DNA of 64,000 nucleotides from Paenibacillus sp. OK003. GTDB taxonomy: Bacteria > Bacillota > Bacilli > Paenibacillales > Paenibacillaceae. The notes beneath the pieces are model-generated. The model searched no databases and had not been told where the DNA came from. It was given only the letters and a program-made list of their open reading frames with translations. The first letter of the stretch is position 1, and the number at the start of each line of letters is the position of its first letter. The position numbers and the translations under genes were made by a program. Below are positions 7,233 through 28,240 of the stretch, piece by piece. The DNA lies in contig NZ_FOBD01000011.1 of NCBI RefSeq assembly GCF_900109515.1, positions 62,001-126,000 of the forward strand, in the 5' to 3' direction.

Positions 7233-7280
7233 ATGTTGCAAAACAGTTGGAATTACTGGACAACTCAGTGTGTTGGCATT

Positions 7281-9616: not shown

Positions 9617-9666
9617 TGGAAAGAAGTAAGAACAGCCCTCACATGAACACAATGATGGACGGCAAA

Positions 9667-9712
9667 AAACCTGAAAGCACAGCGGCTCGCTGAACTTCCA
9701 GGTTCTTTTTTT
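9667..9712 (+). terminator. terminator after the ZIP transporter gene
   Basis: AACCTG / CAGGTT arms with an inner CAGCG / CGCTG stem are followed by CTTTTTTTG on the plus strand. Confidence 0.85.
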
Positions 9713-9761
9713 GTTCACAAATGAAGATTGAATGAAATGATCTGTAAAGGTCGTTGGACGA

Positions 9762-10577
9762 TTACAATCCGGATTTGATAAATCGAATCAGTTCGGCATT
9801 GAATTTTTCCAATTCATCATAAAATGCCCCGTGACCGCTCTCCTCAAAAGCAATCAATTGAGAACCCGCAATGCCTTTGTTCATCTCCTCGGCAAACTCA
9901 AATGGACATATCTCATCCTTCTTCCCGTGCAAAATGGCTGTAGGCACCTGAATCGAACTCAGGTCACCTCGCAAATCCTCATCTCGCAGTGCAATTGCAC
10001 TGGAGATCGTACTGTACGACGAAGCCTCCATACCGAGTGCATGGAACCAATCCATAAACGGCTGGCTATGCTGCTTCGCGAAAAACATGCCGCCAAACGT
10101 CTCCAGCAGCTTTGGACGATCTGCGAAGATCGGCTCAATAATCTGCTCAGTAAGCTGCGCTGGAGTCAATCCATACGGATAACTCTCACGCTGGGTGAAC
10201 ACCGGCGCCGCCGCAGACAATAGCGCCAGCTTGGATACACCATGTCCTGCATGGCGGGCCATATAATGCACGGCAATCGCTCCACCCATGGAAAAGCCCG
10301 CAAGTACAACGTCGGTCAACTCCAGATCATCAATCACGGCACGAACATCGTCCGCCATCCGGTCGTAGTCATAGCCTGTGGACGGTGCGTCCGACTTGCC
10401 ATACCCTCTGAAATCTATGGCAATGGTACGTATGCCATGATTCGGCTATACATTTAATTGATATTCAAACATTTTATAATTGACAGGCCAGCCGTGCAAA
10501 AAGACAACCGGTGTTCCTTGGCCAATATCTTCAACAAATACACTCACATTCGGTTCCACTTGTACGTAACGTCCCAT
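9762..10577 (-). pseudogene. alpha/beta hydrolase gene interrupted by an in-frame TAG
   Basis: Read through, this is a 271-residue alpha/beta hydrolase of the non-heme haloperoxidase/esterase type. The oxyanion motif FLHGWP is near residue 30. The nucleophile elbow AGFSMGG, an HGKKDEICP segment (Asp) and ESGHGAFY (His) complete the triad. The start ATG (10575-10577) follows GGAG, and codon 44 is TAG (10446-10448). The frame stays intact on both sides, and the residues after the stop (GIRTIAIDFRGYGKSDAP) are perfect family sequence. Everything else about the gene is normal. It is therefore either a recent nonsense mutation, a base error in the sequence, or a readthrough case. Translation restarting at an internal ATG near 10358 would lack the N-terminal strands. 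Confidence 0.85.
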
Positions 10578-10757
10578 ATTTCACAGCTCCCTTTATTGTC
10601 ATGTCGCTGCAGCGGCAAATTGCGAACTGCATGGTAATGCTTCAATAACAACGTTCCATGAGTCATATTCCGTTTGGAACGTTTCTCTAGAATCATCTCT
10701 TCGATTCATTACCCGCTGACCCAAGGTTCAAACGCCGTCTTTTTCAAATGGATATCG

Positions 10758-12773: not shown

Positions 12774-12889
12774 ATGAATCACAATCCTTTCTGAATGTCG
12801 GGTTGTGGAGTGCATTTTGCTGCATCCATGTCCCGTGTATTGAAGTCGTATTGAGAATGAGAGCCATTGTTAATACCCTAAAAATGACA

Positions 12890-12920
12890 CATGCTGCTGC
12901 GGGAATCCCGCAGCAGCATG
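12890..12920 (-). promoter_or_regulatory. perfect 15-bp inverted repeat in the metal ATPase leader
   Basis: CATGCTGCTGCGGGA (12890-12904) and its exact complement (12906-12920) are separated by one base. It lies between the Fur-like boxes and the ATPase start. On the minus strand it is followed seven bases later by a short T run (CATTTTTAG), so it could be an attenuator hairpin, or an operator near the transcription start. Confidence 0.7.
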
Positions 12921-12938
12921 GTTATTGAATGGTTGTTG

Positions 12939-12978
12939 AATGATTTTCAAATCATTTTGAATGAGAATGATAATCATT
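12939..12978 (-). promoter_or_regulatory. tandem Fur-family boxes before the metal ATPase gene
   Basis: Two dyads lie side by side. AATGATTTTCAAATCATT (12939-12956) is a perfect palindrome. TGAGAATGATAATCA (12962-12976) matches the Fur 7-1-7 consensus TGATAATNATTATCA at 13 of 15 positions. They sit where a promoter of the ATPase gene would lie. Apart from these dyads and the palindrome at 12890-12920, I see nothing else in the gene-free stretch 12774-13144 but the metY terminator. Confidence 0.65.
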
Positions 12979-13144: not shown

Positions 13145-14473
<1,329 letters not shown>

Positions 14474-14615
14474 TTATACGTTTGGCAAATCCCTAGATGT
14501 CATGACATGGTGGCGTATGTTTTACATATTCTCTCACAAGATGTCGGTTTTGAAAAGAAGTATTTCCGATTTTTCCGATAAGAAATATTTATTATGTGTT
14601 ACGAAGACCGCTATA

Positions 14616-14646
14616 CAAAAAAAACCTTTGCTCTCGCAAAGGTTTT
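14616..14646 (-). terminator. terminator after the kdu operon
   Basis: On the minus strand AAAACCTTTG pairs with CAAAGGTTTT around CGAGAG and runs into a T tract. It lies after the sugar epimerase gene. Confidence 0.88.
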
Positions 14647-14699
14647 AAGGATTTTTTTGCAACGATTCAACTGCCAGGCTGCTGCCGACTCTTTACCGT

Positions 14700-15545
14700 T
14701 TATACCCGAACGCCACTCCATATCTCACGTAAATGCTTGGCCGCTGGGACAGCTTCCTCCGCCGTTACCCCTTCTAGTGAAATATCGATATGTGGTTTAT
14801 ACGTCTTCAATAGTTCAAAAAATAACGGATAATCCAGAATGCCCTCACCCGGCACCGGATTGAACTTCTCACCCTGTGCATTGAAAGCAACGTCTTTGGC
14901 ATGAATGACAATGATGCGCTGATACAGCGTTTCCATCACTTCACGCAGGAAGGCAGACTGGTCAGCCACATGCGGCTGTTTGATCAGATTACAAGGATCG
15001 AACAGCATGCCCAGATTGGATGAAGGGATTTCTTCGAACAGGCGGATCATATGTTCACGCGTATGAAGTGTATGGGTAGATACAGGCTCAATCGCCGCAT
15101 GAACGCCCCACTTCTCCGCCTCTTCCGCCAGTTCCTCTACCGTCTCCCGCAGCACAGTCCACGCCTTTTCTTCATATCCGTTCGCATGAGTATCCCGATA
15201 CGTATCCAGGCCCCCCGTCTCCGTTGCCACCATACTGCAACCGAAATCCCGGGCATAACGCAGATGCTCCTTGAATCGATTAATGTCTGCACGACGGGCC
15301 ACAGGATCAGGATCAATCGGGTTAATATAGCAGCCTAGTACCGCAATCTTGACTCCGCGCTGTGCAAATTGATCTCCGATCTCATTCGCCAGTCCAGGGC
15401 TCAGCTTGCCATTGGAAGAGTCCACATCCGATAACGCCTTGGCTAATGCCAACTGTACCGAATTGAATCCGTTATCCGCGATAGTCTGTGCAAGCTGCGC
15501 TGTAGGCTGTTTGCCAAACGTATGCGCAAGAATACCAAGTTTCAT
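14700..15545 (-). CDS. sugar phosphate isomerase/epimerase (TIM barrel)
   Basis: A 281-residue protein of the xylose-isomerase-like TIM-barrel superfamily (AP endonuclease 2 family fold). Metal-ligand regions can be seen in ATETGG, HAAIEPV, MLFDPCN, VIHAKDV and DISLEGVT. It probably isomerises or epimerises a keto-sugar or uronate intermediate. The ATG at 15545 follows GGAGG and gives the normal MKLGILAHTFG start; the longer frame adds nine residues without a ribosome site. It is the last gene of the kduI operon, 35 bases after kduD, so its substrate is probably a hexuronate derivative (inference). Confidence 0.85.
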   Translation of the reverse strand: MKLGILAHTFGKQPTAQLAQTIADNGFNSVQLALAKALSDVDSSNGKLSPGLANEIGDQFAQRGVKIAVLGCYINPIDPDPVARRADINRFKEHLRYARDFGCSMVATETGGLDTYRDTHANGYEEKAWTVLRETVEELAEEAEKWGVHAAIEPVSTHTLHTREHMIRLFEEIPSSNLGMLFDPCNLIKQPHVADQSAFLREVMETLYQRIIVIHAKDVAFNAQGEKFNPVPGEGILDYPLFFELLKTYKPHIDISLEGVTAEEAVPAAKHLREIWSGVRV

Positions 15546-15580
15546 GTCACTGCCTCCTTTGCCATCGATCACTGACAGGA

Positions 15581-16333
15581 TTAACGAGCCATCCAGCCGC
15601 CATCCACATTCAGTATGTGACCATTCAAATAGTCCGAAGCCGCCGATGCCAGGAAAACAACCGGACCTTTCAGATCCTCAGGTGTTCCCCAGCGTCCGGC
15701 CGGAATCCGTGCCGTGATGTCACGGTACCGATTTTCATCGGCGCGAATCTGAGTCGTATTGTCTGTTTCCATATAGCCTGGTGCAATCCCGTTGATTTGA
15801 ACACCTTTGCCTGCCCATTCATTCGCGAGTGCTTTCGTTAAACCGGCAACCCCATGTTTACTGGCCGTGTATCCTGGTACGTTAATTCCACCCTGATAAG
15901 ACAGCATCGAGGCAATGTTAATGATCTTGCCGCTTCCCCGTTCAATCATATGTCTGCCAGCCAACTGACTCAGGAAAAATACCGTATTCAGGTTAAGACC
16001 AATGACATCATGCCAGTCCTGTTGACCGTGATCCGCTGCAGGTGTACGACGAATAATTCCCGCATTATTGACCAGAATATCAATTCTCGCCTGAAAGGCT
16101 AATGCCTTTTCAAACACCCCGGTCAGTTCATCCTCACGACTCAAATCAGCTTCAATCACATGCGCTTTTCGTCCGAGAGCCTCAATGGCTTTCGCTGTCT
16201 CCGCTGGATTGGAGTAAGACACCAGCACAACATCCGCCCCGGCTTCAGCAAGGCCAATCGCCATTCCTTGTCCAAGACCTCCTGATGTACCAGTGACAAG
16301 TGCAACTTGTCCGCTTAAATCAAATGGGTTCAT
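15581..16333 (-). CDS. kduD: 2-deoxy-D-gluconate 3-dehydrogenase (DKII reductase)
   Basis: A 250-residue short-chain dehydrogenase. TGTSGGLGQGMA is the NAD(P)-binding loop, NNAGI the structural motif, Ser in NIASMLS and YTASKHG the catalytic Ser and Tyr/Lys, and ILNVDGGWMAR the conserved C-terminus. It reduces 2,5-diketo-3-deoxygluconate to KDG in the breakdown of unsaturated uronates from pectin or glycosaminoglycans. ATG at 16333 follows GGAGG by eight bases; the frame upstream of it is not real coding. It is paired with kduI in the same operon, which makes the assignment firm within the SDR family. Confidence 0.92.
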   Translation of the reverse strand: MNPFDLSGQVALVTGTSGGLGQGMAIGLAEAGADVVLVSYSNPAETAKAIEALGRKAHVIEADLSREDELTGVFEKALAFQARIDILVNNAGIIRRTPAADHGQQDWHDVIGLNLNTVFFLSQLAGRHMIERGSGKIINIASMLSYQGGINVPGYTASKHGVAGLTKALANEWAGKGVQINGIAPGYMETDNTTQIRADENRYRDITARIPAGRWGTPEDLKGPVVFLASAASDYLNGHILNVDGGWMAR

Positions 16334-16415
16334 GAATGATTCCTCCGCATGGTTATTGGGTTGCAAACCGTGTCCTTCAGCCTCGGTAGTCAAGTAACCA
16401 CTGTGGAACTGAAGG

Positions 16416-17177
16416 TCAGCTCTGATAATCCACTTCGATACCATTTTGCCTGTACAGGGCTGCTGTCTCCTCATCCAAGCGACTGTCGCTGATGATACAG
16501 TCCAGCTCCGAACAGTGTGCAAAGGTCCGAAGGGCAAATTGTCCAAATTTATAATGATCCACGACGCCATAGACCTGCTGTGAAGCAGAGATCATTGCTT
16601 TTTTTAATGGCACCAGATCTCCTGTATATATGGAAAGTCCAAATTCCGGATGAAGTGCCGTCGTTGAGATAAATGCTTTGTGAATGTTGAGACCTGATAT
16701 GAAGGCCGCCGTGTCGTCTCCCACCAGCATATTGCGCACCCTTGCTCCGCCAGGCACAACCAGTCGCACCTGCTCCTTTTTGGTCAGCTCGGCAATAATG
16801 AACAGATCATTGGTAACCACCGTAATGGGCTGATTGTCCATTCGCTTCGCCATCTCCAACGTAGTGCTCCCACCATCCAGCGCAACAATATCTCCTGGTC
16901 GGATATATGCAAGGGCTCGCTCGGCAATCTCCGTTTTCTCCGAATGATGCTTTTCCGTAGCCCCGCGACTCGTCAGGATGCCATACTGGTCGTTCTGAGC
17001 CAGCATCGCACCCCCGTGGACACGCACGAGTAATCCCATGCCTTCCAGCTTATCGAGATCCTCCCGCACGGTCTTGCCTGTGACCTGTAACAGTTCACTC
17101 AAATCACTGACGGTGACTTCCTGCCGCTCCAGCAGAGCCTCCATAATTTTTTCATGTCTTTTCAATGGATTCATCAC
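16416..17177 (-). CDS. DeoR/GlpR-family regulator of the kdu operon
   Basis: A 253-residue regulator. Residues 1-57 form a winged helix with VTVSDLSELLQVTGKTVRED, and the rest is a DeoR C-terminal sensor with the sugar-phosphate-binding element ALDGGSTTLEMA and the later GLSIYTGD region. It lies inside the operon, between kduI and kduD, so it probably senses a uronate catabolite and controls the operon. Three 10-bp direct repeats just before kduI are a plausible binding site. DeoR proteins are usually repressors lifted by a phosphorylated sugar. Confidence 0.9.
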   Translation of the reverse strand: MMNPLKRHEKIMEALLERQEVTVSDLSELLQVTGKTVREDLDKLEGMGLLVRVHGGAMLAQNDQYGILTSRGATEKHHSEKTEIAERALAYIRPGDIVALDGGSTTLEMAKRMDNQPITVVTNDLFIIAELTKKEQVRLVVPGGARVRNMLVGDDTAAFISGLNIHKAFISTTALHPEFGLSIYTGDLVPLKKAMISASQQVYGVVDHYKFGQFALRTFAHCSELDCIISDSRLDEETAALYRQNGIEVDYQS

Positions 17178-17211
17178 AGATCAACTTCCTGTTTCTTTGG
17201 AATTTACGTGC

Positions 17212-18051
17212 CTATTTCAGGTCCTTCATCGCCACGCCGTCCATATCCTCGAACGTCTGGTTTTCACCAGCCATTGCCCAGCAGAAGGTATAGCTGCTCG
17301 TACCGACACCACTGTGGATGGACCAGCTAGGAGAGATGATGGCCTGACGGTCACGCACAACCAGATGCCGTGTTTCGTTTGGCTCGCCCATCATATGGAA
17401 TACAACGCCATCTTCCGGCAGGTTGAAATACAAGTATACTTCGGAACGGCGGTTGTGGGTATGTGCAGGCATGGTGTTCCACATGTTGCCCTTGTCGAGT
17501 TCCGTAATGCCCATTACCAGCTGACAGCTCTGGATTCCGCCTTCTCCCTGGTGGATGTAGCGATAGATCGTCCGTTCATTCGAGCCTTCAATGCTGCCGA
17601 GATGGTTCGGCTGAGCTTGTTCTTGCGTTGCTTTTACTGTTGGATATGTGTGGTGAGCTGGTGTGGATACAAAATAAAACTGAGCCGGCTGATCGTTGCC
17701 GCTGCTCTTGAACACAACTTCTTTTACACCTCTGCCGATGTACAGGCATTCCTTCGCACCAATCTCGTATCCTTGACCGTCAGCTGTCACCGTTCCATGA
17801 CCTCCAACATTAATGATACCGATTTCACGACGCTCCAGGAAAAAGTTCGTTCCGATATCCTTCAGGTTCACTTCAAGTGCAATATCCTTGCTTTGAGGTA
17901 CAGCCGTTCCTACAATATAACGATCTACATGGGAATATACCGTCACCAATTCATCTGTGGCAAACAATTGCTCCATCAAGAATTCCTCGCGCAGACGGGC
18001 CGTATCATACGTTTTTACCTCATTTGGGTGTGCAGCATAACGGTTTTGCAT
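17212..18051 (-). CDS. kduI: 5-dehydro-4-deoxy-D-glucuronate isomerase
   Basis: A 279-residue cupin-fold isomerase. It converts 5-keto-4-deoxyuronate (from unsaturated galacturonate) to 2,5-diketo-3-deoxygluconate, the substrate of KduD. The zinc-site segment PAHTHNRRSEVYLYF and the N-terminal RYAAHPNEVKTYDT are diagnostic. The ATG at 18051 (AAAGGAA upstream) gives the family N-terminus MQNRYAAHP; a longer frame would read 16 residues through the operator repeats. It is the first gene of the operon. Confidence 0.94.
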   Translation of the reverse strand: MQNRYAAHPNEVKTYDTARLREEFLMEQLFATDELVTVYSHVDRYIVGTAVPQSKDIALEVNLKDIGTNFFLERREIGIINVGGHGTVTADGQGYEIGAKECLYIGRGVKEVVFKSSGNDQPAQFYFVSTPAHHTYPTVKATQEQAQPNHLGSIEGSNERTIYRYIHQGEGGIQSCQLVMGITELDKGNMWNTMPAHTHNRRSEVYLYFNLPEDGVVFHMMGEPNETRHLVVRDRQAIISPSWSIHSGVGTSSYTFCWAMAGENQTFEDMDGVAMKDLK

Positions 18052-18083
18052 CTTTAATCCATTCCTTTCGTGAGTCAGATAAT

Positions 18084-18113
18084 GTTCATATAAGTTCATT
18101 TTAGTTCATTTAA
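18084..18113 (-). promoter_or_regulatory. three 10-bp direct repeats before kduI (probable operator)
   Basis: GTTCATATAA, GTTCATTTTA and GTTCATTTAA follow each other with exact 10-bp spacing, placing the GTTCAT cores on one face of the helix. They start 33 bases before kduI. DeoR-family regulators often bind direct repeats, and one is encoded in this operon. Confidence 0.6.
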
Positions 18114-18183
18114 TATCTTTTGTGTACCTTTTTTTAAAAAAATTTGATTTTCAGATATACCTGTCTCTTATACACGTTTGTTC

Positions 18184-18215
18184 AAAAAAAGCGTCTGGAG
18201 ACCCATCCAGACGCT
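18184..18215 (-). terminator. terminator after the ABC ATPase gene of the bacteriocin island
   Basis: On the minus strand AGCGTCTGGA pairs with TCCAGACGCT around TGGGTC and is followed by seven T residues. Confidence 0.9.
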
Positions 18216-18280
18216 AGAGTATATATGAATTTCGACTAACACGATCTATTTATATGGCGCCAGTATGACTAATAAACGCC

Positions 18281-18940
18281 CTAAACAACTGTCCCCTCTT
18301 TAATATAGATAATTCTGTCGCAGACATCGGCTACCTGATGATCATGTGTGACAATGACAATGGTCTTGCCTCTTCGGTGCAATTCTTTAAAAATGCTTAA
18401 TATTGATTGCTCTGTCTTCTCGTCAAGTGAACCTGTCGGTTCATCAGCCAAAATAATAGAGGGATCTTGGACTATTGCTCTCGCAATAGCGACTCGTTGC
18501 ATTTCTCCGCCTGAAAGATTATTCACAGCCTCCTCGGATAAATGGTTTATTTCTAAAGACGACAGTGTCTCTTTAACTTTTTTATTTATAACTGATTTTG
18601 GTACTTTGCTGTATCTTAAAGGCAAAGCCACGTTTTCAAATACATTTTTAGCTTCGATTAACGCATAATTTTGTACAATAAAACCTATCACTTTCCTGCG
18701 GAAGATAGCGGACTCAGCTGATGTTTTGGATAGTACATCCTGATCCATATATTTGTATATTCCAGAATCAACCTTCTCTAACCCAGCCATTATATTTAGT
18801 AACGTAGATTTACCTGAGCCACTTCTTCCCATAATTGCAGTCATTGAGCCCTCTTCTAAAGTGAGGCTCAGACCTCTCAATACTTCATTCTTTTTAGCTC
18901 CAGTTTCATAGCATTTATGCAAGTCGTTAATCTCAATCAA
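18281..18940 (-). CDS. ABC transporter ATPase (MacB/LolD type) of the bacteriocin island
   Basis: A 219-residue ATPase with Walker A GRSGSGKST, signature LSGGEMQRVAIARA, Walker B IILADEPTGSLDE and the switch His in IVTHDH. The type matches MacB/LolD/FtsE ATPases that drive FtsX-fold permeases. The start is set at TTG 18940, eight bases after GGAG, which gives the family-like MIEINDLHKCYE; a GTG at 18949 overlapping the permease stop is the alternative. It is the last gene of the island and AT-rich like its partners. Probable role: power an exporter or immunity pump for the secreted protein encoded upstream. Confidence 0.9.
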   Translation of the reverse strand: MIEINDLHKCYETGAKKNEVLRGLSLTLEEGSMTAIMGRSGSGKSTLLNIMAGLEKVDSGIYKYMDQDVLSKTSAESAIFRRKVIGFIVQNYALIEAKNVFENVALPLRYSKVPKSVINKKVKETLSSLEINHLSEEAVNNLSGGEMQRVAIARAIVQDPSIILADEPTGSLDEKTEQSILSIFKELHRRGKTIVIVTHDHQVADVCDRIIYIKEGTVV

Positions 18941-18945
18941 TAAGA

Positions 18946-20238
18946 TCACTCCATTCTTTTTAGCAAAGAACCCATATTTTCGTTTTGGATGCGCCTATAT
19001 AAGGGAATAAGAACAGACAGTATGATTGTGGCTGAAAGAGTCAGCAAAATGAATAGATAGGCAACCATATTATGGCCAATAAACATTCCATACAGTATCA
19101 AACTGATGATTGCGGGTGATAACACTACAATTCCAATCTCAACTACATAATAGAGAAATATTTGATTAGGTACAGCTCCTGATATCAAATGAATTGACCA
19201 CGCTTTAAGGTTATCTTCAAATTTATTTTTGAAAAAAATCCACATTGTCAATACAACGATTAACATTATCGTAATTCCTATTATGCTGAGGAGAAATCTA
19301 TTTTCCTTCAGGGCTGATAGAACAAAACCAAAAGGTATAGCGCTAGCTCCTAAAAATCTAGTATCAACAAAGCCCGTCCTTTCTTTAGCTTCCTCTAGTT
19401 TCTTATTTACAATAAAATCTCCAGAAGCACTATATACTGAGCCGTTAATCAGTTGGAGATAATGCTTTTGTTGAAAACTGAAATCCTCCTCGCTTTGTGG
19501 GGCAGATACAAATTGTTGTGCGGGCATTACAATATAACGATCCAAATATAACTCCGGTTCATTAGAGCTAAAGATCAGGGAATTGGGCTTAAGAAAGCCT
19601 TTTACAACCAAGTTAAATTTCTTAAATAAATATTGTCCTTTTATTGTATCCCCTGGATTATAGAAATTTTTATACTCATGACCTAATAGTACGGGTATCC
19701 GATCATCCGCATTTCCCATATAATCATTTTCTGCGAAACTCTCACCATCGACTGCACTAACCGAAAACATATCTACCGCCTGCTTATTTAATTGTACTGC
19801 TTTGATAGCATTATATGGGCCCTCTCCATCAATATCAAAAGGTTCACTTACGAAACCCATTTCATAATCTCTGGTGAATTTTTCTTTCTCTGACTTAGTG
19901 AAGTCGAGTAACTCAATGGGCTGAGTGAATATATAAATATACTTTTCATTTAAATCCGTTTCCAAATAACTATAGAACTTTTTAATGGTTTCAAGAAAAT
20001 GTACTTGTTTCATTAAACTTGATAATTGATCCCCATCAAGCAATGTATCAGAAAGTTGGTAGCTTTTCATATCTTCAAGAAGATTAATTTGATTTGATTT
20101 TTTCTCAAGGCTATTTAAACCTAGAAATACAACCATAGCTAAAAAAAACAGGAAGAGGATCTCAACTATGATTAGAATCGTAACCATTTTATTTTTACGG
20201 ATACTTTCAAACACTTCCGTGTATATTCGTTCGTACAT
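18946..20238 (-). CDS. MacB/FtsX-type ABC permease, second subunit
   Basis: A 430-residue membrane protein. One helix at residues ~14-36 (ILIIVEILFLFFLAMVVFL) is followed by a large extracellular domain, then three C-terminal helices, ending in IPLYRRIQNENMGSLLKRME. This is the FtsX/MacB topology. The start at 20238 has GAAAGGA seven bases upstream; the longer frame has no site. It overlaps the ATPase gene at its 3' end, indicating coupled translation. It resembles, but is not a close copy of, the preceding permease, so the two may form a heterodimer. The substrate is not known. Confidence 0.85.
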   Translation of the reverse strand: MYERIYTEVFESIRKNKMVTILIIVEILFLFFLAMVVFLGLNSLEKKSNQINLLEDMKSYQLSDTLLDGDQLSSLMKQVHFLETIKKFYSYLETDLNEKYIYIFTQPIELLDFTKSEKEKFTRDYEMGFVSEPFDIDGEGPYNAIKAVQLNKQAVDMFSVSAVDGESFAENDYMGNADDRIPVLLGHEYKNFYNPGDTIKGQYLFKKFNLVVKGFLKPNSLIFSSNEPELYLDRYIVMPAQQFVSAPQSEEDFSFQQKHYLQLINGSVYSASGDFIVNKKLEEAKERTGFVDTRFLGASAIPFGFVLSALKENRFLLSIIGITIMLIVVLTMWIFFKNKFEDNLKAWSIHLISGAVPNQIFLYYVVEIGIVVLSPAIISLILYGMFIGHNMVAYLFILLTLSATIILSVLIPLYRRIQNENMGSLLKRME

Positions 20239-20270
20239 AGAAAAATCCTTTCTTATGATAAAAAATGATT

Positions 20271-21296
20271 CTACTTTAGCCTCTTGCTCAAGCTTTTCAT
20301 AGACATTCTCAAGGATAAAAAAGATGTGAGAACTATAACTAGAAAACCAAAGCAAATATGAAGAAAATATTCATTGTAAAATTCTGGATTAATATTTAGA
20401 ATAGCAAAACTACCGCCGGCTACTAAAACATAAGTAAATGAGGTAATCGTAAAATATTTAATCACATATCTAAATAACGGATATATAGGTTGAAATCCCA
20501 AAATCCAAAGTACACGAATCTCGGACCACTGTTTCTTGATCCAACTCACTGTAAAAACAATACTGGAAAGGGATACCAAAATAAACACTATAATTTTCAA
20601 AATAACATTATAGATATCGGAATTTGCATAGCTTTGTGCTCCATATTCTCCTCGTTCAAACAAGTGAACAGGCACTTTAATGCCTCCCACATCCAGCATT
20701 TTACTTTTGGTAATGGAACTTAAATCCGAGGCATTTAATACAAAAATACCCGATTCTCTATTTTCCTCCCCACTCAATCCATTCATGGACAGTATTATTG
20801 TTTTATCTATTTCAGTTAGATGAGAGGCGCCCATTGTCCCAATAACTTCAAACTCATTGTTTTTATAAATATAGTATAACTTCCCATTTTTATATTTGAG
20901 CTCTGATCTCTGAATTTCTTTTCCTACAACTGCAAATCTCCCGTTATCGTAAAAGTCCTCTTTTCGAAAAAATCTACCGTCTACAATCGGCGGTACATAA
21001 GTCTGATTATCAAAGTATATGGCTCGAATATTTCTTGATCCCGTTTGAAGTTCCTTAAACAATGTAAACTGCTGACCAATGTTTATATCGCGCCAATTCC
21101 ATAATACGGATTCATCAGGTATAAAAAAGATACTATTTTCATTATAGAGACCTCTTCCTAATGTATCCATTTCACTCTTTTTAATTTCATAGTAACTCAT
21201 GGAAACGATCATGATGCTCAGCAAGATGTAAAGCAAGCAAATATGAAAAACCCCACCTCTATTAATTTTCTTAAACAGATCGCTCATCCAGTCCAT
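20271..21296 (-). CDS. MacB/FtsX-type ABC permease, first subunit
   Basis: A 341-residue protein with one N-terminal helix (residues ~15-36), an extracellular domain of about 200 residues, and three helices in the last 110 residues ending in LSLRMSMKSLSKRLK. The topology is FtsX/MacB-like. The start may be the ATG three codons downstream, which has better spacing to AAAGG. Its codon use (many AAA, ATA, AAT) is unlike the flanking operons. In lactococcin-972-type loci a single larger membrane protein sits in this place; here two separate half-size permeases occupy it. Confidence 0.82.
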   Translation of the reverse strand: MDWMSDLFKKINRGGVFHICLLYILLSIMIVSMSYYEIKKSEMDTLGRGLYNENSIFFIPDESVLWNWRDINIGQQFTLFKELQTGSRNIRAIYFDNQTYVPPIVDGRFFRKEDFYDNGRFAVVGKEIQRSELKYKNGKLYYIYKNNEFEVIGTMGASHLTEIDKTIILSMNGLSGEENRESGIFVLNASDLSSITKSKMLDVGGIKVPVHLFERGEYGAQSYANSDIYNVILKIIVFILVSLSSIVFTVSWIKKQWSEIRVLWILGFQPIYPLFRYVIKYFTITSFTYVLVAGGSFAILNINPEFYNEYFLHICFGFLVIVLTSFLSLRMSMKSLSKRLK

Positions 21297-21310
21297 TACC
21301 TTTCATAAAT

Positions 21311-21347
21311 AGCGGCAAGTTCTCTTTTTTCAAGAAATCTTGCCGCT
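21311..21347 (-). terminator. hairpin between the secreted-protein gene and the permeases
   Basis: AGCGGCAAG pairs with CTTGCCGCT with additional inner pairing. No long T run follows, so it probably acts as a partial terminator or RNA-stabilising hairpin that favours expression of the secreted protein over the transporter. Confidence 0.6.
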
Positions 21348-21382
21348 TTATTATTTAAGTACTAAATAAACTCACAATAGAA

Positions 21383-21793
21383 TTATTCTTCGGTTCCCCA
21401 ATATGTTTTAGAAATCAGGTCAAAACTAGCATAATTTGTTTGCGCTTTTGTAGTACCGGTCCCCCATTGTCTCCCACTATCTTCTCTAACCCATATCCAC
21501 TCCATCTGAGCTCTAGAGTAATGGCGCTGACCTGGCCAAACCGTTTTTGCAACAGCACGTTTTAATTTACTATCTGTTGTACTATACTCAGAATACCCTT
21601 CATGGGAATCAGGATATAATTTTACTTCCTGTGTTGTTATTCCTCTGTTTGGACTGGCGTTGGTGAAGTAGCCTTCACCTTCTACCCAACCTCCTCCAAC
21701 ACCGAATGGTTTGGCTGCATAAGCAGAGGAAGCAATGGAACCCAATATTGCTGTAATTGCCAGAGCTTTAATTACTTTTTTAGTTATTCTCAT
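21383..21793 (-). CDS. secreted protein, lactococcin-972-like bacteriocin candidate
   Basis: A 136-residue protein with a clear signal peptide: basic MRITKKVIK, a hydrophobic core, and SSAYA before AKPFG (cleavage about residue 26). The mature part of about 110 residues is glycine-, tryptophan- and tyrosine-rich with no cysteine. It has a GVGGGW element near its N-terminus and a NYASFDL...YWG tail, which recall the lactococcin 972 family. It is longer than lactococcin 972 itself (66 residues mature), so this is a distant match judged by eye. AGGAG precedes the ATG. Its position upstream of two permeases and an ATPase supports a bacteriocin or peptide-toxin role. Confidence 0.6.
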   Translation of the reverse strand: MRITKKVIKALAITAILGSIASSAYAAKPFGVGGGWVEGEGYFTNASPNRGITTQEVKLYPDSHEGYSEYSTTDSKLKRAVAKTVWPGQRHYSRAQMEWIWVREDSGRQWGTGTTKAQTNYASFDLISKTYWGTEE

Positions 21794-22369
21794 GAAATTT
21801 TCTCCTATTCTCTATTAATTTAATTTGAAAGCTGGCCAGCTAATCAAAATAATCCATAATTATACATGGAAATTATTTGAATTCAAATAGCTAATAATGT
21901 CGTATAAACACTTATTTTGTATTGTTTTGTAATATAATATATGATTACTACTTTTTTTGACGAAATGAGAAAGAAACTGTTTCATATTGAACTGGATATC
22001 TTTGACTAGACAGCCCAGCCCATATTTGGGTGGAGAACTAGGATAGGAATGAAGACTAACGACTTCAAATTGTCATCATTTTATGGCTAGAAAATAGATT
22101 TGCACAGAGTTGATCTGTCCATGCAAGTCTATTTTTCCGCATCCATATACATATATGTTCACATCCACGAATCAAGTCTTTAAACAAACAAAAGAAGCCC
22201 GCTAACCGAATCTTCGAGCACGTCTATTATTACTGCTTATAATTCTCTAGGTTACTTAGTATTTCATTATTATTCGTCTCATAGTCGATAGGCTTAGTCT
22301 TCGCTACACTGCCGAACAGTGACATATTAATTTTGTTATATTAAATATATAAAGTAAAATAATGGACTG
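21794..22369 (+). other. AT-rich gene-poor stretch with a hairpin
   Basis: No convincing gene of normal size is present. An inverted repeat, AAAATAGATTTGCA (22091-22104) with TGCAAGTCTATTTT (22122-22135), matches at 13 of 14 positions. It contains an inner CAGA/TCTG stem and is flanked by A and T runs, so it could terminate transcription in either direction. Before it, at 21968-22012, a plus-strand start codon gives only a 14-codon frame. The stretch may hold remnants of transferred DNA or a small RNA. Confidence 0.45.
22230..22325 (-). CDS. possible 31-residue ORF or gene remnant
   Basis: An ATG-to-TAA frame of 31 codons begins MSLFGSVAKTKPIDYE and has a protein-like composition, followed by further stops. 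No ribosome binding site is visible upstream and the surroundings are AT-rich, so this may be a gene fragment or chance. I do not recognise it. Confidence 0.2.
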   Translation of the reverse strand: MSLFGSVAKTKPIDYETNNNEILSNLENYKQ

Positions 22370-23353
22370 TTAACTTAATAGAAGAACCTTTCCCTTGATG
22401 CTCGATTCAGAGGCTGCAATGGCCTGTTTCACATTTTCCAATCCAAACGTCGCCCCAATGTTTGCCATCAATAGCCGCCCTTCCCGAACTAACTTAATCA
22501 CTTCATTGAATACCTGTTCCCATCGTTCTTGCGAACATCTCTCTACCCAATGCTTTAGCCAAAAGAGTTTAACGTTAACTTGCGTTCCTCGGGTCATCTC
22601 ATGCCATAAAGGCGTGATGCCCGAGAGCAGCCCGACGCTTATTACCGTTCCATTCGGCCTTAAACAACTCACGAGCTGCTCTCCGTCTGCCCCTCCGATG
22701 CAGTCGACGGCCGCATTAGCGCCGAGCCCCTCCGTTAATTCTGCACTTCTCTCCTGTAGCAGCTCTTCCATCGTATTCACGACAGCAGCTGCCCCAAGGC
22801 CATATAACTCAGCAGTATGTCGATCATTTCTTGTGAGCGCAATCATACGAAATCCCAGAATCTTCGATAATTGTGCAAATATTCGACCGATTGCGGAACC
22901 ACCAGCATTGACAATTAAGGTATCTCCGTACGTAAGATGAAGCATATCCGTACAAATTAACCATGCTGTTATCGGGTTAATGTAGAGCTGACTTGCCGAT
23001 TGATCATTAATATCATCAGGCACAATGATCGCATGTCGATCCAAAGTCCTCACCATCTCTTGCCATGTGTTTTCACCTCTCAACGGCAGGACGCGCCGCC
23101 CTAACAGTTGATTGGATACTCCCGGCCCTACTGCTTCCACGATCCCCACTCCCTCGAACCCAGGTACAGCGGGCAATGCCGTCCGATGCGGATATGCGCC
23201 TCGAACGGGAATGACATCTGAAGGATTAATAGGCCGAGCGCACATCCTCACAACTAATTCACCGGGACCAGGAGGCACTAACTGCTTCTCCTCTATGCAC
23301 AGCACTTCGCTCGGCTCTCCGAAACGATAATAACGTATAACCTTAGTCTTCAT
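22370..23353 (-). CDS. MDR-superfamily oxidoreductase (enoyl reductase/quinone reductase-like)
   Basis: A 327-residue medium-chain dehydrogenase. INPSDVIPVRGAYP and PAVPGFEGVGIVEAVG belong to the catalytic domain, and NAGGSAIGRIFAQL is the NADPH Rossmann loop. The zinc ligands of true alcohol dehydrogenases are absent. The INPSD motif and overall pattern fit trans-2-enoyl-CoA reductase (MECR/Etr1)-like or quinone-oxidoreductase-like enzymes. The ATG at 23353 follows AGGAG; the longer frame adds 19 residues of leader. It stands alone next to the bacteriocin island, so its substrate is not indicated by context. Confidence 0.85.
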   Translation of the reverse strand: MKTKVIRYYRFGEPSEVLCIEEKQLVPPGPGELVVRMCARPINPSDVIPVRGAYPHRTALPAVPGFEGVGIVEAVGPGVSNQLLGRRVLPLRGENTWQEMVRTLDRHAIIVPDDINDQSASQLYINPITAWLICTDMLHLTYGDTLIVNAGGSAIGRIFAQLSKILGFRMIALTRNDRHTAELYGLGAAAVVNTMEELLQERSAELTEGLGANAAVDCIGGADGEQLVSCLRPNGTVISVGLLSGITPLWHEMTRGTQVNVKLFWLKHWVERCSQERWEQVFNEVIKLVREGRLLMANIGATFGLENVKQAIAASESSIKGKVLLLS

Positions 23354-23427
23354 TGTTGCATCTCCTAAAATCATTTTTCTTAGATAGAATATAACATTAG
23401 TGCCCCCCATGTTGGGATAAATGAAAG

Positions 23428-23457
23428 AACCCGACGGGAAAATCCCCGCCAGGCTCA
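23428..23457 (-). terminator. weak terminator after the GH13 gene
   Basis: GCCTGGCGGGG and CCCGTCGGGTT form an imperfect GC-rich stem on the minus strand followed by CTTTC. Pairing and T run are both modest. Confidence 0.5.
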
Positions 23458-23473
23458 GATAACTTGCGATGGT

Positions 23474-25117
23474 TTATATGGAGTAAATAAGCGCCTCATA
23501 AGGACGCAAACGAACGGTGCCGTTTCTAACCTCACCCGAGGTTGACCGATCCAGATTGCCAATAACCAAGCGGGCATTCGTGGCTCGATCAGCGAATGAA
23601 GCAGGCAGACGATAGGACTGCTCCTGGTCCGAATGATTGAGCATAACAAGCCATGTCTCTCCATCCAGACTGCGGCTATATGCATATACATGCTCTTCCC
23701 CTGCTGATTGGTCACGATAATCTCCATAGACCATAACCGCGTTCGTTTTACGCAGCGCAATCAGCTGCTGATAATATGCAAATATGGAGTCCTCCGCGGC
23801 TAAATCCCGCTCCACATTAATCTCTTCATAGTTGGGATTCACCTGCATCCACGGCTGCCCTTCGGTAAACCCGGCATGCTTGCTGCTGTCCCACTGCATC
23901 GGCGTACGGGAATTATCCCGACTCAGCGGCTGGAGACCGTGGAGGACTTCATCTGGCGCACGGCCTTTACTGATTTCTTCCTTATATTTGTTCTTCATGG
24001 CAATATCGTGATATTCATCAATGGAAGAGAACCGGACACCCGTCATGCCGATCTCCTCTCCCTGGAATACATACGGTGTTCCCGGAAGAGTATGAATCAT
24101 GGTCGCCAGTTGTTTGGCCGATTGCACACGGTATTGTCCATCATTGCCGTACCTCGAAACCTGCCTTGTGTGATCGTGATTGTTCAGGAACTGGGAGTTC
24201 CAACCTTCATTACGGAACGCCTCATACCAGCTCTCCTGAATTTCCTTGTACCGTGCCAGATCCCAAGTAGGCATGTCATCCGCCACCTGGAAATGGAATA
24301 ACGTATGCAGCTCTTTCCGGTTGTCGCCCACATATAAGAGACCATCCTCAGGTGTGACAAACGGAATCTCTCCCACAGTCATGATGTCATAATGCTGGAG
24401 AACCTCCCGGTTCATTTCCTGCAAGTATTCATGAATGCCGGGATTATTGCCCAGATAATCAATGCTCTCCGGGTGCTCCGCATCCGGGAAACCTTCCAGC
24501 TTGGCGAGCAGGTTAATGACATCCATACGGAAGCCGTCAATGCCCTGATCCAGCCAAAAACGCATCATCCGATAGATCTCCTGACGCAGTTCAGCATTTT
24601 CCCAATTCAGATCAGGCTGCTCCTTGGCAAAGGAATGGAAATAATACTCCCCCGTTCGCTCGTCGTAGGTCCAGGTCGATGGTTCAAAATAGGAGCGCCA
24701 GTTGTTCGGCGGGCTATCCTGTTTCCCCGGCTTCCATATATACCAGTTGCGTTTCGGATTATCGACGGATGAACGCGATTCTTCGAACCATGCATGCTGC
24801 TCTGATGTATGATTCACCACCAGATCCATAATGAGCTTCATGCCCAGTGCATGGACCTTGTCCAGCAATTGCCTGAACTGCTCCATCGTTCCGGCTTTTG
24901 CCATGATGCGGTAATAATCCGCGATATCGTATCCGTTGTCTTTATCTGGCGATTCATAAATGGGATTGAGCCAGATGACATCTATCCCCAGACTTTTGAT
25001 ATAGTCGAGCTTGAGCATCAAGCCCTCCAAATCCCCGATGCCGTCCCCATTCGCATCCAGGAAGCTCCGCCAGTAGATTTGATATACCACAGCTTCTTTC
25101 CACCATGCCCGGTTCAT
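23474..25117 (-). CDS. GH13 alpha-glucosidase (oligo-1,6-glucosidase type)
   Basis: A 547-residue cytoplasmic GH13 enzyme of the subfamily containing MalL and oligo-1,6-glucosidase. It hydrolyses terminal alpha-glucosidic bonds in short oligosaccharides. Conserved regions are MDLVVNHTS (I), GFRMDVIN with the nucleophile Asp (II), TVGEIPFV with the acid/base Glu (III) and FLNNHDH with the stabilising Asp (IV). Val in the VVNHT region is often linked to alpha-1,6 activity, which is a hint only. There is no signal peptide. It is the last gene of the GH65/ABC operon, 21 bases after pgmB, matching the malL-pgcM pairing known in Bacillus. Confidence 0.93.
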   Translation of the reverse strand: MNRAWWKEAVVYQIYWRSFLDANGDGIGDLEGLMLKLDYIKSLGIDVIWLNPIYESPDKDNGYDIADYYRIMAKAGTMEQFRQLLDKVHALGMKLIMDLVVNHTSEQHAWFEESRSSVDNPKRNWYIWKPGKQDSPPNNWRSYFEPSTWTYDERTGEYYFHSFAKEQPDLNWENAELRQEIYRMMRFWLDQGIDGFRMDVINLLAKLEGFPDAEHPESIDYLGNNPGIHEYLQEMNREVLQHYDIMTVGEIPFVTPEDGLLYVGDNRKELHTLFHFQVADDMPTWDLARYKEIQESWYEAFRNEGWNSQFLNNHDHTRQVSRYGNDGQYRVQSAKQLATMIHTLPGTPYVFQGEEIGMTGVRFSSIDEYHDIAMKNKYKEEISKGRAPDEVLHGLQPLSRDNSRTPMQWDSSKHAGFTEGQPWMQVNPNYEEINVERDLAAEDSIFAYYQQLIALRKTNAVMVYGDYRDQSAGEEHVYAYSRSLDGETWLVMLNHSDQEQSYRLPASFADRATNARLVIGNLDRSTSGEVRNGTVRLRPYEALIYSI

Positions 25118-25138
25118 GCTGCATCTCCCCTTTCCCGC

Positions 25139-25828
25139 TTAATGGCTATGCTCCTGCAACGTACGCTCCAGGAATGACAGCGTGAGCTGTTTCGTATCGT
25201 TCAGCACCACGTCCGCTCCGGAACCTTTCAGTACCGCTTCTTCCCCAATACCCACGGCGATCATGCCTGCGGCTTTGATGGCCTCAATACCCGCCTGCGC
25301 ATCCTCGATGCCGATGCAGGCTTTAACGTCAGCACCCACTTCTTCCGCTCCACGCAGGAACAGATCAGGTGCTGGCTTGCCGTGAGGTACGGAATCCGGA
25401 TGAACCACATAGCGGAACAGTGAGTCCAACTCCAGTGCCTTCAGAATTTGAGGCGCATTTTTGCTGGCCGAGGCGATCACCGCAGGAATGCCTGCGGCTT
25501 GCAGCTCAAGCAGCAACTCCCGAATTCCAGGATAAGTATGCTCAGGTGTCAGCGAGTCCAGCAACGAGACGTAATGTTCGTTTTTACGCTGTGCGAATTC
25601 TTCCTTTTCCTCAGCCGAAAATGCCTCTTCCTTGCCACCAAGACGCAAAATGCGCGCCAGTGACTCTCCGCGGCTAATGCCCTTCAACTGCTCGTTGAAC
25701 TCACGATCAAACGGGATGTCCAGCTCTTCTCCAAGCTGCTTCCATGCAACATAATGATACTCCGCTGTGTCAGTAATGACACCATCCAAATCAAAAATAA
25801 CGGCTTGAAGTGCTCCGTTCCCTTTCAT
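25139..25828 (-). CDS. pgmB: beta-phosphoglucomutase
   Basis: A 229-residue HAD-superfamily enzyme. FDLDGVITDTAEYHY carries the nucleophile D13 and acid/base D15, KGISRGESL is the typical cap-domain segment, ASASKNAP is motif II, and GKPAPDLFL and GIEDAQAGIEA are motifs III and IV. It converts beta-glucose 1-phosphate to glucose 6-phosphate. Its partner is the inverting GH65 phosphorylase in the same locus, which releases beta-glucose 1-phosphate. Repeat copy B lies between the preceding glycosidase gene and this one. Confidence 0.95.
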   Translation of the reverse strand: MKGNGALQAVIFDLDGVITDTAEYHYVAWKQLGEELDIPFDREFNEQLKGISRGESLARILRLGGKEEAFSAEEKEEFAQRKNEHYVSLLDSLTPEHTYPGIRELLLELQAAGIPAVIASASKNAPQILKALELDSLFRYVVHPDSVPHGKPAPDLFLRGAEEVGADVKACIGIEDAQAGIEAIKAAGMIAVGIGEEAVLKGSGADVVLNDTKQLTLSFLERTLQEHSH

Positions 25829-25890
25829 TTACCCGTTCCTCCCCATGCCATTGCTCTAGTTGAGTTCAACTAAAAGATATTTACACTGGT

Positions 25891-26019
25891 CACTCCGATG
25901 ACAGAACAACCTTCCGATCGCTGTTATCCCCAGATTTTTTTTGATATCCTTTTCAGAAGGGAAAATCCGGGAATAAAGGCGAACACTGCGTTTCTTCAGG
26001 TTTTTTCTGCCCTCTCCGT
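25891..26019 (-). repeat. dispersed palindromic intergenic repeat, copy B
   Basis: This copy keeps the core arms CCCCAGATTTTTT and AAAATCCGGGAAT and the outer arms (GACAGAACAACCT against a segment near AGGTTTTTTCTGCC). The CACTCCGA at 25891 and CTCTCCGT near 26012 echo the end repeats of copy A. It sits between the six-hairpin glycosidase gene and pgmB. Confidence 0.75.
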
Positions 26020-26044
26020 TATCGTGTAAATGTTTAGTTGAACA

Positions 26045-28240
26045 TTATAGTTGCCATTCAATTCGTTTCTCGTTGCTTTCACGTTTCTCGCCTTTCCAGT
26101 CCAGAACAACCGTCCAGCCTGATGCATTGGAAATGCTCGCATAACGTTTGCCCTCACGGGATTCAAAATGAATATCGAACTCTGCATCGCCTACCATCAG
26201 TTGCTCCAGACTGCATGTTTTGTTTTCCCATGCCTGCGGCATATCAGGTGATACGGTTAAACGGCGATGCTGTGCTTCCGGTTGAACGCCGAAGAAATGT
26301 CGTACGACTGGTACAGCTAGAGCATAGATGGTCCACGCCTGCACGACACAGCCGTAGTCCGGGGACATCTCCGAGAATGAACCTGGCACTACACGTGAGA
26401 AGCTTTTCCCCATCCGACGCAGTAAATCCAGTGCATGATCCGGGTGCCCGTACGCCGCCTCTGCAACCGCATGTGCTCCGGTAGAGATTGTCATCGTGCC
26501 CTGTTGGTACATGGCCGCAAGATAAGTACCGTATTCACCAATGAAGTCGCGATTTCGCATCGTTTCCAGCGCACGCTGTGCTTTGTCCTGATCGGCAATT
26601 CCTGCTTCCATCGGGGTGACAATGACCCAGTTTTTGTTCAGCAGCCAACCGCGATCTTTCTGATCCTCACCGGCATCAGCCAATAATCCTTCCACGTACG
26701 CCCGGTAGTCTGTGATCCCTTGCTTTTCAGCGAGAGAAACCATGTAATCCACCTTGGGCACAATATCAGAAACAGGTGCAACGGCATCTGCATACAGGCT
26801 GTCTTTTTCAGACCAATATACATCATTCACCGCGCGTACCGCTTGTTCGGCCAGTTTTTGATAGGTCTGGTGCCGCTTCGTTTCACCCAAATAGAGACTC
26901 ATGTGCTCCAGCGCCTGAAGAGCCTTCGCAGTATATACGGCACTATCAATTAGCTCCATATTCAATCCAGCAATCTCGATGATGCCGTAACCGGAAGGGA
27001 ACAGGTCTCCATCCGGGTCCATCTCACCCAGCAGCCAATCGATTCCCTGGACACAGTAGTCATAATGCTCGCGCAGAAGTGCATGGTCTCCGGTCCACAG
27101 GAACATTTCCCATACAAAGGCGATATAGTGTGCCGTTTCCTGCGTGTTGCCGCGATTAGATACCGCTCCCATGGTGGTCACTTCATGCACAAAACGTCCA
27201 TTGCCGTTCGCTTCCTTGGACTTCTCCAGCAACAAATTAAGCGTATCCCGCACCAGTTGATGGTCTCCCGTAGCAAGCACACCCTGAAGCGCATACGTAC
27301 TGTCACAGCCGAACCACCACGGATATGTGGGTCCACCTGCCGTCAATCCACGACCAATGCCGTCTACTTGCTGCACCAACCACTGATTATTGCGCTTCAC
27401 CCAGGCAAATTGCTCGTTCAGCTCATCTTCGCCTTCAATGGTCAGTACTGCTCGCTGATCCAACTTGTCGTAGAGTTGTTGTTTCTGCTCTTTCAAGCTG
27501 ACGTAGTCACGTTCGATGACGGCATAAGTCTGCTCACAGGCTTCACGGGACGACTCCGAACCGGCAACAAATAACCGGAAGCGGAACACATCCTTCTCCT
27601 CCAGCGTGCATTCGGTTACAAAAGAAATGCCTGTGCCCTTGCCTGCCGTCAGTTCTGGTCCGTAAATCTCAGGACCAACTGTCATTTCCGTTCCAGGCAG
27701 GTCACTTCCGATCATGGCATACCAGTCTTGGGCATCATCTTTGACGATGACTTTGCGCGAAGAAATGGCTTCTGCCGTTTCACCCGCTCCTGGGATAATT
27801 CCAATCTCATCGGAATACCACACTGGACGGAGATCGGTACGTGACAGCAGCTCCAGCTTGAGCCGGGTTGTTCCTTTGCCGTAAGCGCTGATCTCATATT
27901 CTGCGACCATGCCTTTTTCATAATCGGGGGCAAACTGGTTGCGTTCAATGGATACCGGAATGTGGCTCAATCCGTGATCATAATCGAACCGGCTTCCGCC
28001 CCAGGATTCACTTGTGAATCCGTCTGCCCTTGCCCATACCGCAATGTTGCGATCCAGATCGGTTACCTTCAGCCAGAAGCCGTCCAGCAGCTTGATCGGA
28101 TGCAGCCATACACCGCCCATTTCGTTAGCCATATGATGCCCAAAGTCGGGAAAGTATCCGTCCTGGGTACCGCAAATCTTTACATATTCACCTGCGTTAT
28201 AATACAAATTAAAAGGATGTCTGCTTGTTAATGTGGCCAT
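26045..28240 (-). CDS. six-hairpin glycosidase (amylo-alpha-1,6-glucosidase-like), specificity unknown
   Basis: A 731-residue protein without a signal peptide. Residues ~1-270 look like a beta-sandwich, and ~280-640 like an (alpha/alpha)6 barrel of the six-hairpin type, with GPTYPWWFGCDSTYAL, the central MDPDGDLFPSGYGIIE and SPDYGCVVQAWTIYA. This is the architecture of glycogen debranching and related GH families. Its cytoplasmic location and position between the permease genes and pgmB say it trims an imported gluco-oligosaccharide, perhaps removing a branch the phosphorylase cannot attack. I cannot name the family or bond with confidence. Confidence 0.8.
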   Translation of the reverse strand: MATLTSRHPFNLYYNAGEYVKICGTQDGYFPDFGHHMANEMGGVWLHPIKLLDGFWLKVTDLDRNIAVWARADGFTSESWGGSRFDYDHGLSHIPVSIERNQFAPDYEKGMVAEYEISAYGKGTTRLKLELLSRTDLRPVWYSDEIGIIPGAGETAEAISSRKVIVKDDAQDWYAMIGSDLPGTEMTVGPEIYGPELTAGKGTGISFVTECTLEEKDVFRFRLFVAGSESSREACEQTYAVIERDYVSLKEQKQQLYDKLDQRAVLTIEGEDELNEQFAWVKRNNQWLVQQVDGIGRGLTAGGPTYPWWFGCDSTYALQGVLATGDHQLVRDTLNLLLEKSKEANGNGRFVHEVTTMGAVSNRGNTQETAHYIAFVWEMFLWTGDHALLREHYDYCVQGIDWLLGEMDPDGDLFPSGYGIIEIAGLNMELIDSAVYTAKALQALEHMSLYLGETKRHQTYQKLAEQAVRAVNDVYWSEKDSLYADAVAPVSDIVPKVDYMVSLAEKQGITDYRAYVEGLLADAGEDQKDRGWLLNKNWVIVTPMEAGIADQDKAQRALETMRNRDFIGEYGTYLAAMYQQGTMTISTGAHAVAEAAYGHPDHALDLLRRMGKSFSRVVPGSFSEMSPDYGCVVQAWTIYALAVPVVRHFFGVQPEAQHRRLTVSPDMPQAWENKTCSLEQLMVGDAEFDIHFESREGKRYASISNASGWTVVLDWKGEKRESNEKRIEWQL

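Follow-up and report, generated by a model that had tools for sequence, protein, structure and literature searches.

A conserved four-gene cassette

A 64,000-nucleotide stretch of the Paenibacillus sp. OK003 genome (contig NZ_FOBD01000011.1, positions 62,001 to 126,000; termed here the window, whose own coordinates are used throughout) carries four minus-strand genes encoding a small secreted protein (SEC), two permeases (PERM1 and PERM2) and an ATP-binding cassette (ABC) ATPase. All four are present where the original prediction, made from the sequence alone, had placed them, and its picture of a single minus-strand transcription unit of foreign base composition, headed by a gene for a mature chain of 110 residues without cysteine, was borne out (Table 1). 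The guanine-plus-cytosine (GC) content is 0.29-0.40 in 500-base intervals from ~18.0 to 22.4 kb, compared with 0.39-0.56, mostly 0.48-0.53, in the flanks.

The four genes form a real, conserved cassette. In a genome-neighbourhood survey of the kind that the original prediction had proposed, 28 of 32 loci containing SEC sequence (31 plus the window, found through SEC or PERM2 searches) showed the order SEC-PERM1-PERM2-ATPase on one strand, and this order is kept down to ~34% SEC identity on Sarcina plasmid p6, which, like P. polymyxa plasmid pPPM1a, holds a full copy. The four exceptions are a Priestia plasmid (L020/L054) on which the order apparently crosses the record start; L066, where a transposase-like gene (named by eye) splits PERM2 and SEC has no recognisable signal; L021, on Sarcina plasmid p1, where the transporter is intact but the SEC ahead of it is truncated; and L069, a SEC remnant with stops. 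Homologues standing apart from ABC genes, which the original prediction had named as evidence against itself, are represented by one locus in 32, the L069 remnant; the prediction is not refuted by them. Among the 28, the SEC frame has no signal peptide at L065 and L067, and the starts at L070 and L072 are unsure. A Terrisporobacter locus (L019) and a second P. polymyxa plasmid match (H3/H10) stand outside these counts. The PERM1 and PERM2 profiles used for the loci were rebuilt in three rounds and cross-match each other, and the PERM1 profile absorbed the fused permease of one locus (L029).

The distribution of the cassette is patchy. With a single protein as query, SEC relatives turned up in 7 of 75 genus genomes (8 copies), to which a profile search added G017 and G018, bringing the known carriers to 9 of 75. 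SEC was found in 20 of 295 genomes (22 places) of a Paenibacillaceae sample and in 5 of 398 genomes of a phylum sample, the window included, one of the five (L027) being doubtful. The L027 match, 47 residues within a 484-residue frame at E 8e-4, was dropped as not SEC.

The explanation that we favour, with moderate confidence, is that these genes constitute a mobile bacteriocin-immunity cassette, coding for a secreted protein that probably acts on competitors and for a two-part pump that would shield the producing cell. The following sections present the evidence on each component and weigh this explanation against its rivals.

The secreted protein

The SEC precursor begins with a lysine-rich n-region and a hydrophobic core, with likely cleavage after SSAYA (by eye and with a simple script), and the family is recognised by the signature GGWxE..GYF ... 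H ... TxW ... YHYTRARxE ... DSGRxWG ... TxAxS ... AKTYYG. Neither Pfam nor NCBIfam names a family for it. The original prediction had labelled the protein lactococcin-972-like and proposed a hidden Markov model (HMM) search against the Lactococcin_972 family; when run, this search matched none of 21 SEC members to PF09683 at E up to 1, and TIGR01653 touches one of the 21 (E 0.017). The host genome (G000, 6.7 Mb) likewise has no PF09683 match, while two other Paenibacillus genomes (G006 and G007) do; in the family of G171, PF09683 occurs in 1 of 18, as a broken stretch. Sequence kinship to lactococcin 972 is not detectable in SEC itself, and the part of the label that stands rests on the ranking of the ATPase by TIGR03608 and on the layout of several canonical operons, both described below.

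No solved structure matches SEC, alone or as a profile (best profile E 0.59, a thiamine-binding protein), and an AlphaFold2 model built from two sequences only (window and L002) reached a mean pLDDT of 33.5. No match was found in a phage search with the SEC relative L013 as query or among viral contigs; PHROGs returned nothing for the window SEC and one weak match for a relative (E 0.008), in the signal region; and PADLOC returned nothing for SEC, PERM1 or PERM2. No paper on the SEC family was found in the PubMed Central subset searched, which leaves subscription journals outside. SEC belongs to a family unnamed by Pfam and NCBIfam and is a candidate antibacterial protein; the earlier suggestion of a possible new toxin class was right.

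The transporter

The domain content of their relatives places the PERM1 and PERM2 families among the type VII (MacB-like) ABC transporters. At E up to 0.1, MacB_PCD and FtsX match 9 and 7 of 17 PERM1 relatives and 8 and 3 of 18 PERM2 relatives, respectively; the window PERM1 scores 24.2 bits against MacB_PCD (cut-off 27), and the window PERM2 has no Pfam match. Among solved structures, the PERM1 and PERM2 relatives find MacB, LolC and LolF as weak matches (best E 0.0003 and 0.002), and the nearest structure to the ATPase is BceA, with MacB and LolD also near. The ATPase has intact Walker A, signature, Walker B and H-loop motifs by eye.

TIGR03608 (L_ocin_972_ABC) is the top NCBIfam model for 8 of 8 cassette ATPases and 0 of 5 controls. 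The window ATPase scores highest of the eight, at 235.2 bits, without reaching the curated cut-off of 254.85; the ATPase of a canonical lactococcin 972 locus (L032) scores 282.3 bits. A tree of ATPases sets those of the cassette apart from canonical ones and from 20 paralogues of the host genome.

The original prediction held that two half-size permeases replace the single large membrane protein of known lactococcin-972 loci, and this was confirmed: five fused permeases measure 652-746 residues, compared with 341 + 430 in the cassette. These fused proteins belong to the TIGR01654 type (bact_immun_7tm, DUF1430), which has no match in the window PERM1 or PERM2 and whose cut-off is passed by the two fused permeases scanned. 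By a simple hydropathy scan (n=5), the fused chain has the segment order of PERM1 plus PERM2, namely a hydrophobic segment, an outer domain of ~140-200 residues, further segments, an outer domain of ~235-280 residues and final segments, with the first half spaced like PERM1 and the second like PERM2. In profile alignments, PERM1 (95%) and PERM2 (57%) both align best on the FtsX core in the first half of the fused chain, and the long match of PERM2 to the second half is weak (19.7%); these alignments are less telling than the hydropathy scan, and general MacB kinship would also yield them. One locus (L029 in G130, 2088-12972) holds side by side a split cassette, a near-identical second transporter copy and a fused TIGR01654 permease that has an ATPase of its own, and a helix-turn-helix (HTH) regulator gene lies between its two transporter copies.

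Immunity versus export

In the family search, 24 genomes have a close PERM2 (E below 1e-40), all 20 SEC genomes being included, and PERM2 occurs also in four genomes without SEC and as extra copies in two more, with distant matches only in five further genomes; the SEC and PERM2 surveys, which share genome number and handles, are taken as one draw, and up to six candidates were scored per genome, so that extra PERM2 copies may be missed. Five of six fetched transporter loci hold no SEC sequence, either in the 1.1-1.2 kb upstream read in three frames or among the open reading frames (ORFs) of the locus. The sixth (L165 in G672, 2657-6154) has a more distant two-permease transporter after a different, unrelated secreted protein of 106 residues. 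In L029 no SEC precedes the second copy of the transporter, and the transporter is kept beside a truncated or signal-less SEC at three loci (L021, L065 and L067). The orphan ATPases are scattered over several well-supported positions in the cassette tree, so that SEC was probably lost more than once, which an immunity device would lead one to expect more than an exporter would.

Retention of the transporter without SEC, or beside a broken SEC, fits immunity better than export, and on this pattern the transporter is more likely an immunity machine than an exporter. The original prediction had called it an exporter; the transporter itself stands, but its export role is doubtful, as SEC also carries its own Sec signal. 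It could still be argued that the split transporter is a dedicated exporter that carries SEC out of the cell, or pulls it from the membrane once Sec has translocated it, with SEC possibly still a bacteriocin. The tight linkage and order of SEC with the transporter genes would suit such a role, as would the NCBIfam description of TIGR03608 as a putative bacteriocin export transporter and the ability of MacB-type pumps to move proteins from the membrane surface; we nevertheless consider it unlikely, given the Sec signal and the transporters kept without SEC. A comparison with streptococcin B points the same way: in a background lacking BlpAB it is secreted with or without ComAB, in support of Sec, the test bearing on ComAB and not on its own B and C genes (PMC11796350).

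If the cassette is indeed for bacteriocin immunity, SEC, with its signal peptide, would leave the cell via the Sec pathway and, as a folded, cysteine-free protein of 110 residues, would inhibit related Gram-positive bacteria that do not carry the cassette, its target most likely being cell-wall precursors or the outer leaflet of the membrane. With an ATPase dimer, PERM1 and PERM2 would assemble into an ABC machine of the MacB/LolCDE/BceAB type (type VII), a split counterpart of the fused transporter in lactococcin 972 operons, which would protect the producer by freeing its membrane or the target from SEC. In Bacillus subtilis the MacB-like transporter YknWXYZ guards cells against the SdpC toxin. 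The cassette shares MacB_PCD and FtsX domains with MacB, LolCDE and BceAB through many PERM1 and PERM2 relatives, but it differs from them in having no membrane-fusion or outer-membrane partner and in being paired with a small secreted protein.

Several observations weigh against the bacteriocin-immunity interpretation. As for SEC, the mature chain of the window is near neutral (pI 6.95), the sequence searches made revealed no kinship to any known toxin, and no killing or protection test of any family member was found. As for partnership, L161, counted as an orphan, has an unrelated 73-residue ORF with a hydrophobic N-terminus 37 bp upstream of the transporter, so that a different partner is possible there; SEC and transporter both look broken at L066; and the L069 remnant persists without a transporter. 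On the 5.6-kb Terrisporobacter plasmid pTVTCOM3 (L019, 3102-4776), a signal-bearing SEC-like protein of 111 residues (E 0.005) is accompanied by one PERM2-like permease and by no ATPase among ORFs of at least 50 residues; no other signal-bearing SEC-like gene was seen to lack a complete transporter, and this one is perhaps a minimal form and a case against a strict need for the full transporter. As for the link to lactococcin 972, all eight cassette ATPases fall below the TIGR03608 cut-off, in L028 TIGR03608 leads by only 2 bits, and the ATPase tree, whose central branch has weak support (40/8), does not join cassette with canonical ATPases. The functions of the B and C genes in lactococcin 972 loci are themselves called unverified (PMC11796350).

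Relationship to lactococcin 972 operons

We class the cassette as a variant form of lactococcin-972-type bacteriocin-immunity operons, in which the secreted protein is of an unnamed family and the transporter is split. As in the lactococcin 972 operon (lcn972-orf2-orf3 of pBL1), streptococcin B and mediterrocin, a protein with a Sec signal is followed by a permease and an ABC ATPase; members of the lactococcin 972 class carry a Sec signal and no modification genes, and there are likewise none among the four cassette genes. Occurrence on plasmids or in a patchy pattern is also common to both, lactococcin 972 itself residing on plasmid pBL1 (PMC4055356). The cassette differs in the absence of detectable sequence kinship in SEC, in the division of the permease between two genes and in an ATPase below the TIGR03608 cut-off. 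Lactococcin 972 binds lipid II, orf2-orf3 are treated as immunity genes, strains with the lcn972 cluster show minimum inhibitory concentrations of 800-1600 AU/mL in the table rows available compared with 12.5 for the host, and the cluster stabilises plasmids (PMC4055356). For mediterrocin, which has a Sec signal, a DUF1430 protein is considered likely to confer immunity (PMC12345188).

Whether SEC is itself a very divergent lactococcin 972 homologue, with the same beta-sandwich and a transporter whose permease was split, is a question that overlaps our favoured reading and was judged separately; we regard such descent as possible, if somewhat doubtful. The same operon layout occurs at canonical loci L031, L032, L075, L076 and L078, all four canonical gaps that were folded (without shuffles) have a long stem after the toxin gene, the cassette ATPases are ranked first by TIGR03608, and short motifs in common can be picked out by eye (GGxW, SG, YY). 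Mediterrocin, moreover, is 18% identical to the lactococcin 972 core and has a similar predicted fold (PMC12345188). Direct comparisons of the proteins do not bear this out: hhalign gave 11.7 between SEC and eight canonical lactococcin 972 proteins, inside the range of 60 column-shuffled profiles (maximum 14.0); HMM scores between the two families were no better, in either direction, than for reversed sequences; and the SEC profile did not find 2LGN, which a canonical member did find, so that the solved-structure test can work. The canonical profile comprises only eight members, two of them near-copies of others (L076 and L078b), and a richer one could therefore still reveal weak kinship; L073 and L074 (PF09683) were left out of it for an unclear frame and an internal stop, respectively.

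Equally tentative is the proposal that SEC founds a separate Sec-exported bacteriocin family unrelated to lactococcin 972, and that the same immunity machine, in fused or in split form, works with several secreted proteins that are unrelated to one another, toxins being swapped in front of it. If toxins are indeed exchanged before a common type VII transporter, L165, with its third, unrelated 106-residue secreted protein, would be another case.

On our preferred bacteriocin-immunity reading, the cassette adds an unnamed family of candidate antibacterial proteins with a putative MacB-type self-protection transporter. The orphan transporters would offer a ready route to the immunity function that is called unverified for the lactococcin 972 B and C genes (PMC11796350), and the split permeases may ease study of which half recognises the toxin.

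Canonical loci vary in their own right. In Paenibacillus G006 and G007, true PF09683 genes are followed by fused permeases of 746 and 742 residues, and these loci served as comparators; the Macrococcus plasmids L075 and L076 have an extra YxeA-family gene between permease and ATPase. The layout does not extend to every PF09683 gene: the plasmid gene tables for Streptomyces L077 and L079, which are incomplete, list no permease next to it.

A recurrent hairpin between SEC and PERM1

As the original prediction had noted, the DNA between SEC and the transporter genes contains a hairpin that lacks a T run; it consists of a 9-bp stem and an inner helix. The SEC-PERM1 gap of the window folds at -29.6 kcal/mol (z -5.3, 100 mononucleotide shuffles). 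In a stricter single-stem test the window hairpin does modestly (p 0.1), owing to the break in its helix; shuffles in this comparison were single-base and 100 each, and the identical gap gave p 0.1 in the window and 0.04 in L011.

Structure in this gap recurs across the family. Of 29 testable SEC-PERM1 gaps (the 1-bp gap of L068 lies outside the test), 21 fold at least 2 standard deviations below mononucleotide shuffles and 8 do not. Compared with 49 control gaps taken from the same loci, a stem of at least 9 pairs occurs in 20/29 versus 19/49, a stem at p <=0.01 in 16/29 versus 9/49 (Fisher p 0.0011), and a stem without a T run in 18/29 versus 12/49 (p 0.0016). These p values are optimistic, since the cassette gaps are partly related, L011 copying the window gap and L013/L014 and L071/L072 being near-copies. 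The hairpin sequences differ among distant loci, and it is thus the structure, not the sequence, that recurs. A role in dosage control is plausible, in which the hairpin would let SEC outnumber the transporter, either by protecting the end of the SEC mRNA or by limiting read-through.

Recent movement of the cassette

Comparison with relatives indicates that the cassette moved recently. With G041, which its kinship label puts in another species, identity is 99.5-99.9% in the four genes and 97.7-99.0% at the non-coding edges of the cassette, compared with 91.6-95.5% in six flanking stretches; in the same-species genome G015 neither SEC nor PERM2 was found. It is the excess identity of the genes over the flanks, together with the absence of the cassette from G015, that argues for recency. 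Paenibacillus sp. PCH8 (L002) carries the cassette at a different chromosomal site, and its matches to window positions 14001-28000 are confined to 18184-18213 and 18244-22053. Homology to five relatives (G015, G020, G019, G002 and G036) ends at 18142-18144, and in G019 window positions 18142 and 22371 lie only 78 bp apart.

This distribution bears on a further alternative, that SEC is a secreted signal or cell-wall protein rather than a toxin, with the transporter sensing or releasing it or conferring antibiotic resistance. Type VII transporters such as BceAB do sense antimicrobial peptides as well, and the HTH regulator gene of L029, at that one locus, would agree with a signalling role. A patchy, partly plasmid-borne and recently transferred distribution (9/75 genus genomes), and loci where only SEC was lost, are more in keeping with a competition trait, and we consider this alternative quite improbable.

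The left junction has features of its own. The site at 18143, upstream of a kduI-like gene, is variable among relatives, in that G015, G019 and G020 each have different DNA past the same break point. The 15-mer CTGTCTCTTATACAC occurs in just 2 of 75 genus genomes, G000 and G041, in both at the left junction, and the window holds no second copy on either strand with up to one mismatch. Its bases correspond to 15 of the 19 in the Tn5 mosaic end. A library adapter in a single assembly is not the simplest explanation, since G041, which is one contig of 7.55 Mb, carries the 15-mer as well.

Coordinates and neighbouring features

Table 1. Features of the cassette and its borders in the window.
Feature	Position	Strand	Basis or remark
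AT-rich island (about 4.2 kb)	18143..22347	.	GC content in 500-base intervals; sharp left edge at ~18142/18143
15-mer CTGTCTCTTATACAC at left junction	18161..18175	+	
Cassette common to Paenibacillus sp. PCH8 (L002), at a different chromosomal site	18184..22053	-	DNA match
Terminator-like hairpin with T run, closing the unit after the ATPase	18190..18215	-	
ABC ATPase, 222 residues	18281..18949	-	Motifs by eye; TIGR03608 best, below cut-off
PERM2, MacB/FtsX-type permease, 430 residues	18946..20238	-	Outer domain ~275 residues; assigned from relatives
PERM1, MacB/FtsX-type permease, 341 residues	20271..21296	-	Outer domain ~195 residues, 4 hydrophobic segments
Hairpin without T run, between SEC and PERM1	21311..21347	-	Folding and stem tests
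SEC, secreted protein of 136 residues, candidate bacteriocin	21383..21793	-	Sequence, signal peptide, family signature
Predicted Sec signal peptide of SEC, 26 residues	21716..21793	-	By eye and simple script
Candidate promoter TTGAAT-16-TATAAT upstream of SEC	21859..21886	-	10/12 matches

The candidate promoter lies about 65 bp before SEC and is by itself no evidence, 22 such sites occurring in the region compared with 19.2 in shuffles. Rfam gave no match at gathering score within 18000-22400. The 430 residues of PERM2 are counted from an ATG with a good ribosome site, the mechanical ORF beginning earlier, at 20355, and an alternative start is possible for PERM1 at the ATG at 21287. On either side of the four-gene unit lie genes named by eye, the kduI-like gene at 17212-18099 and one for a quinone-oxidoreductase-like protein at 22370-23410.

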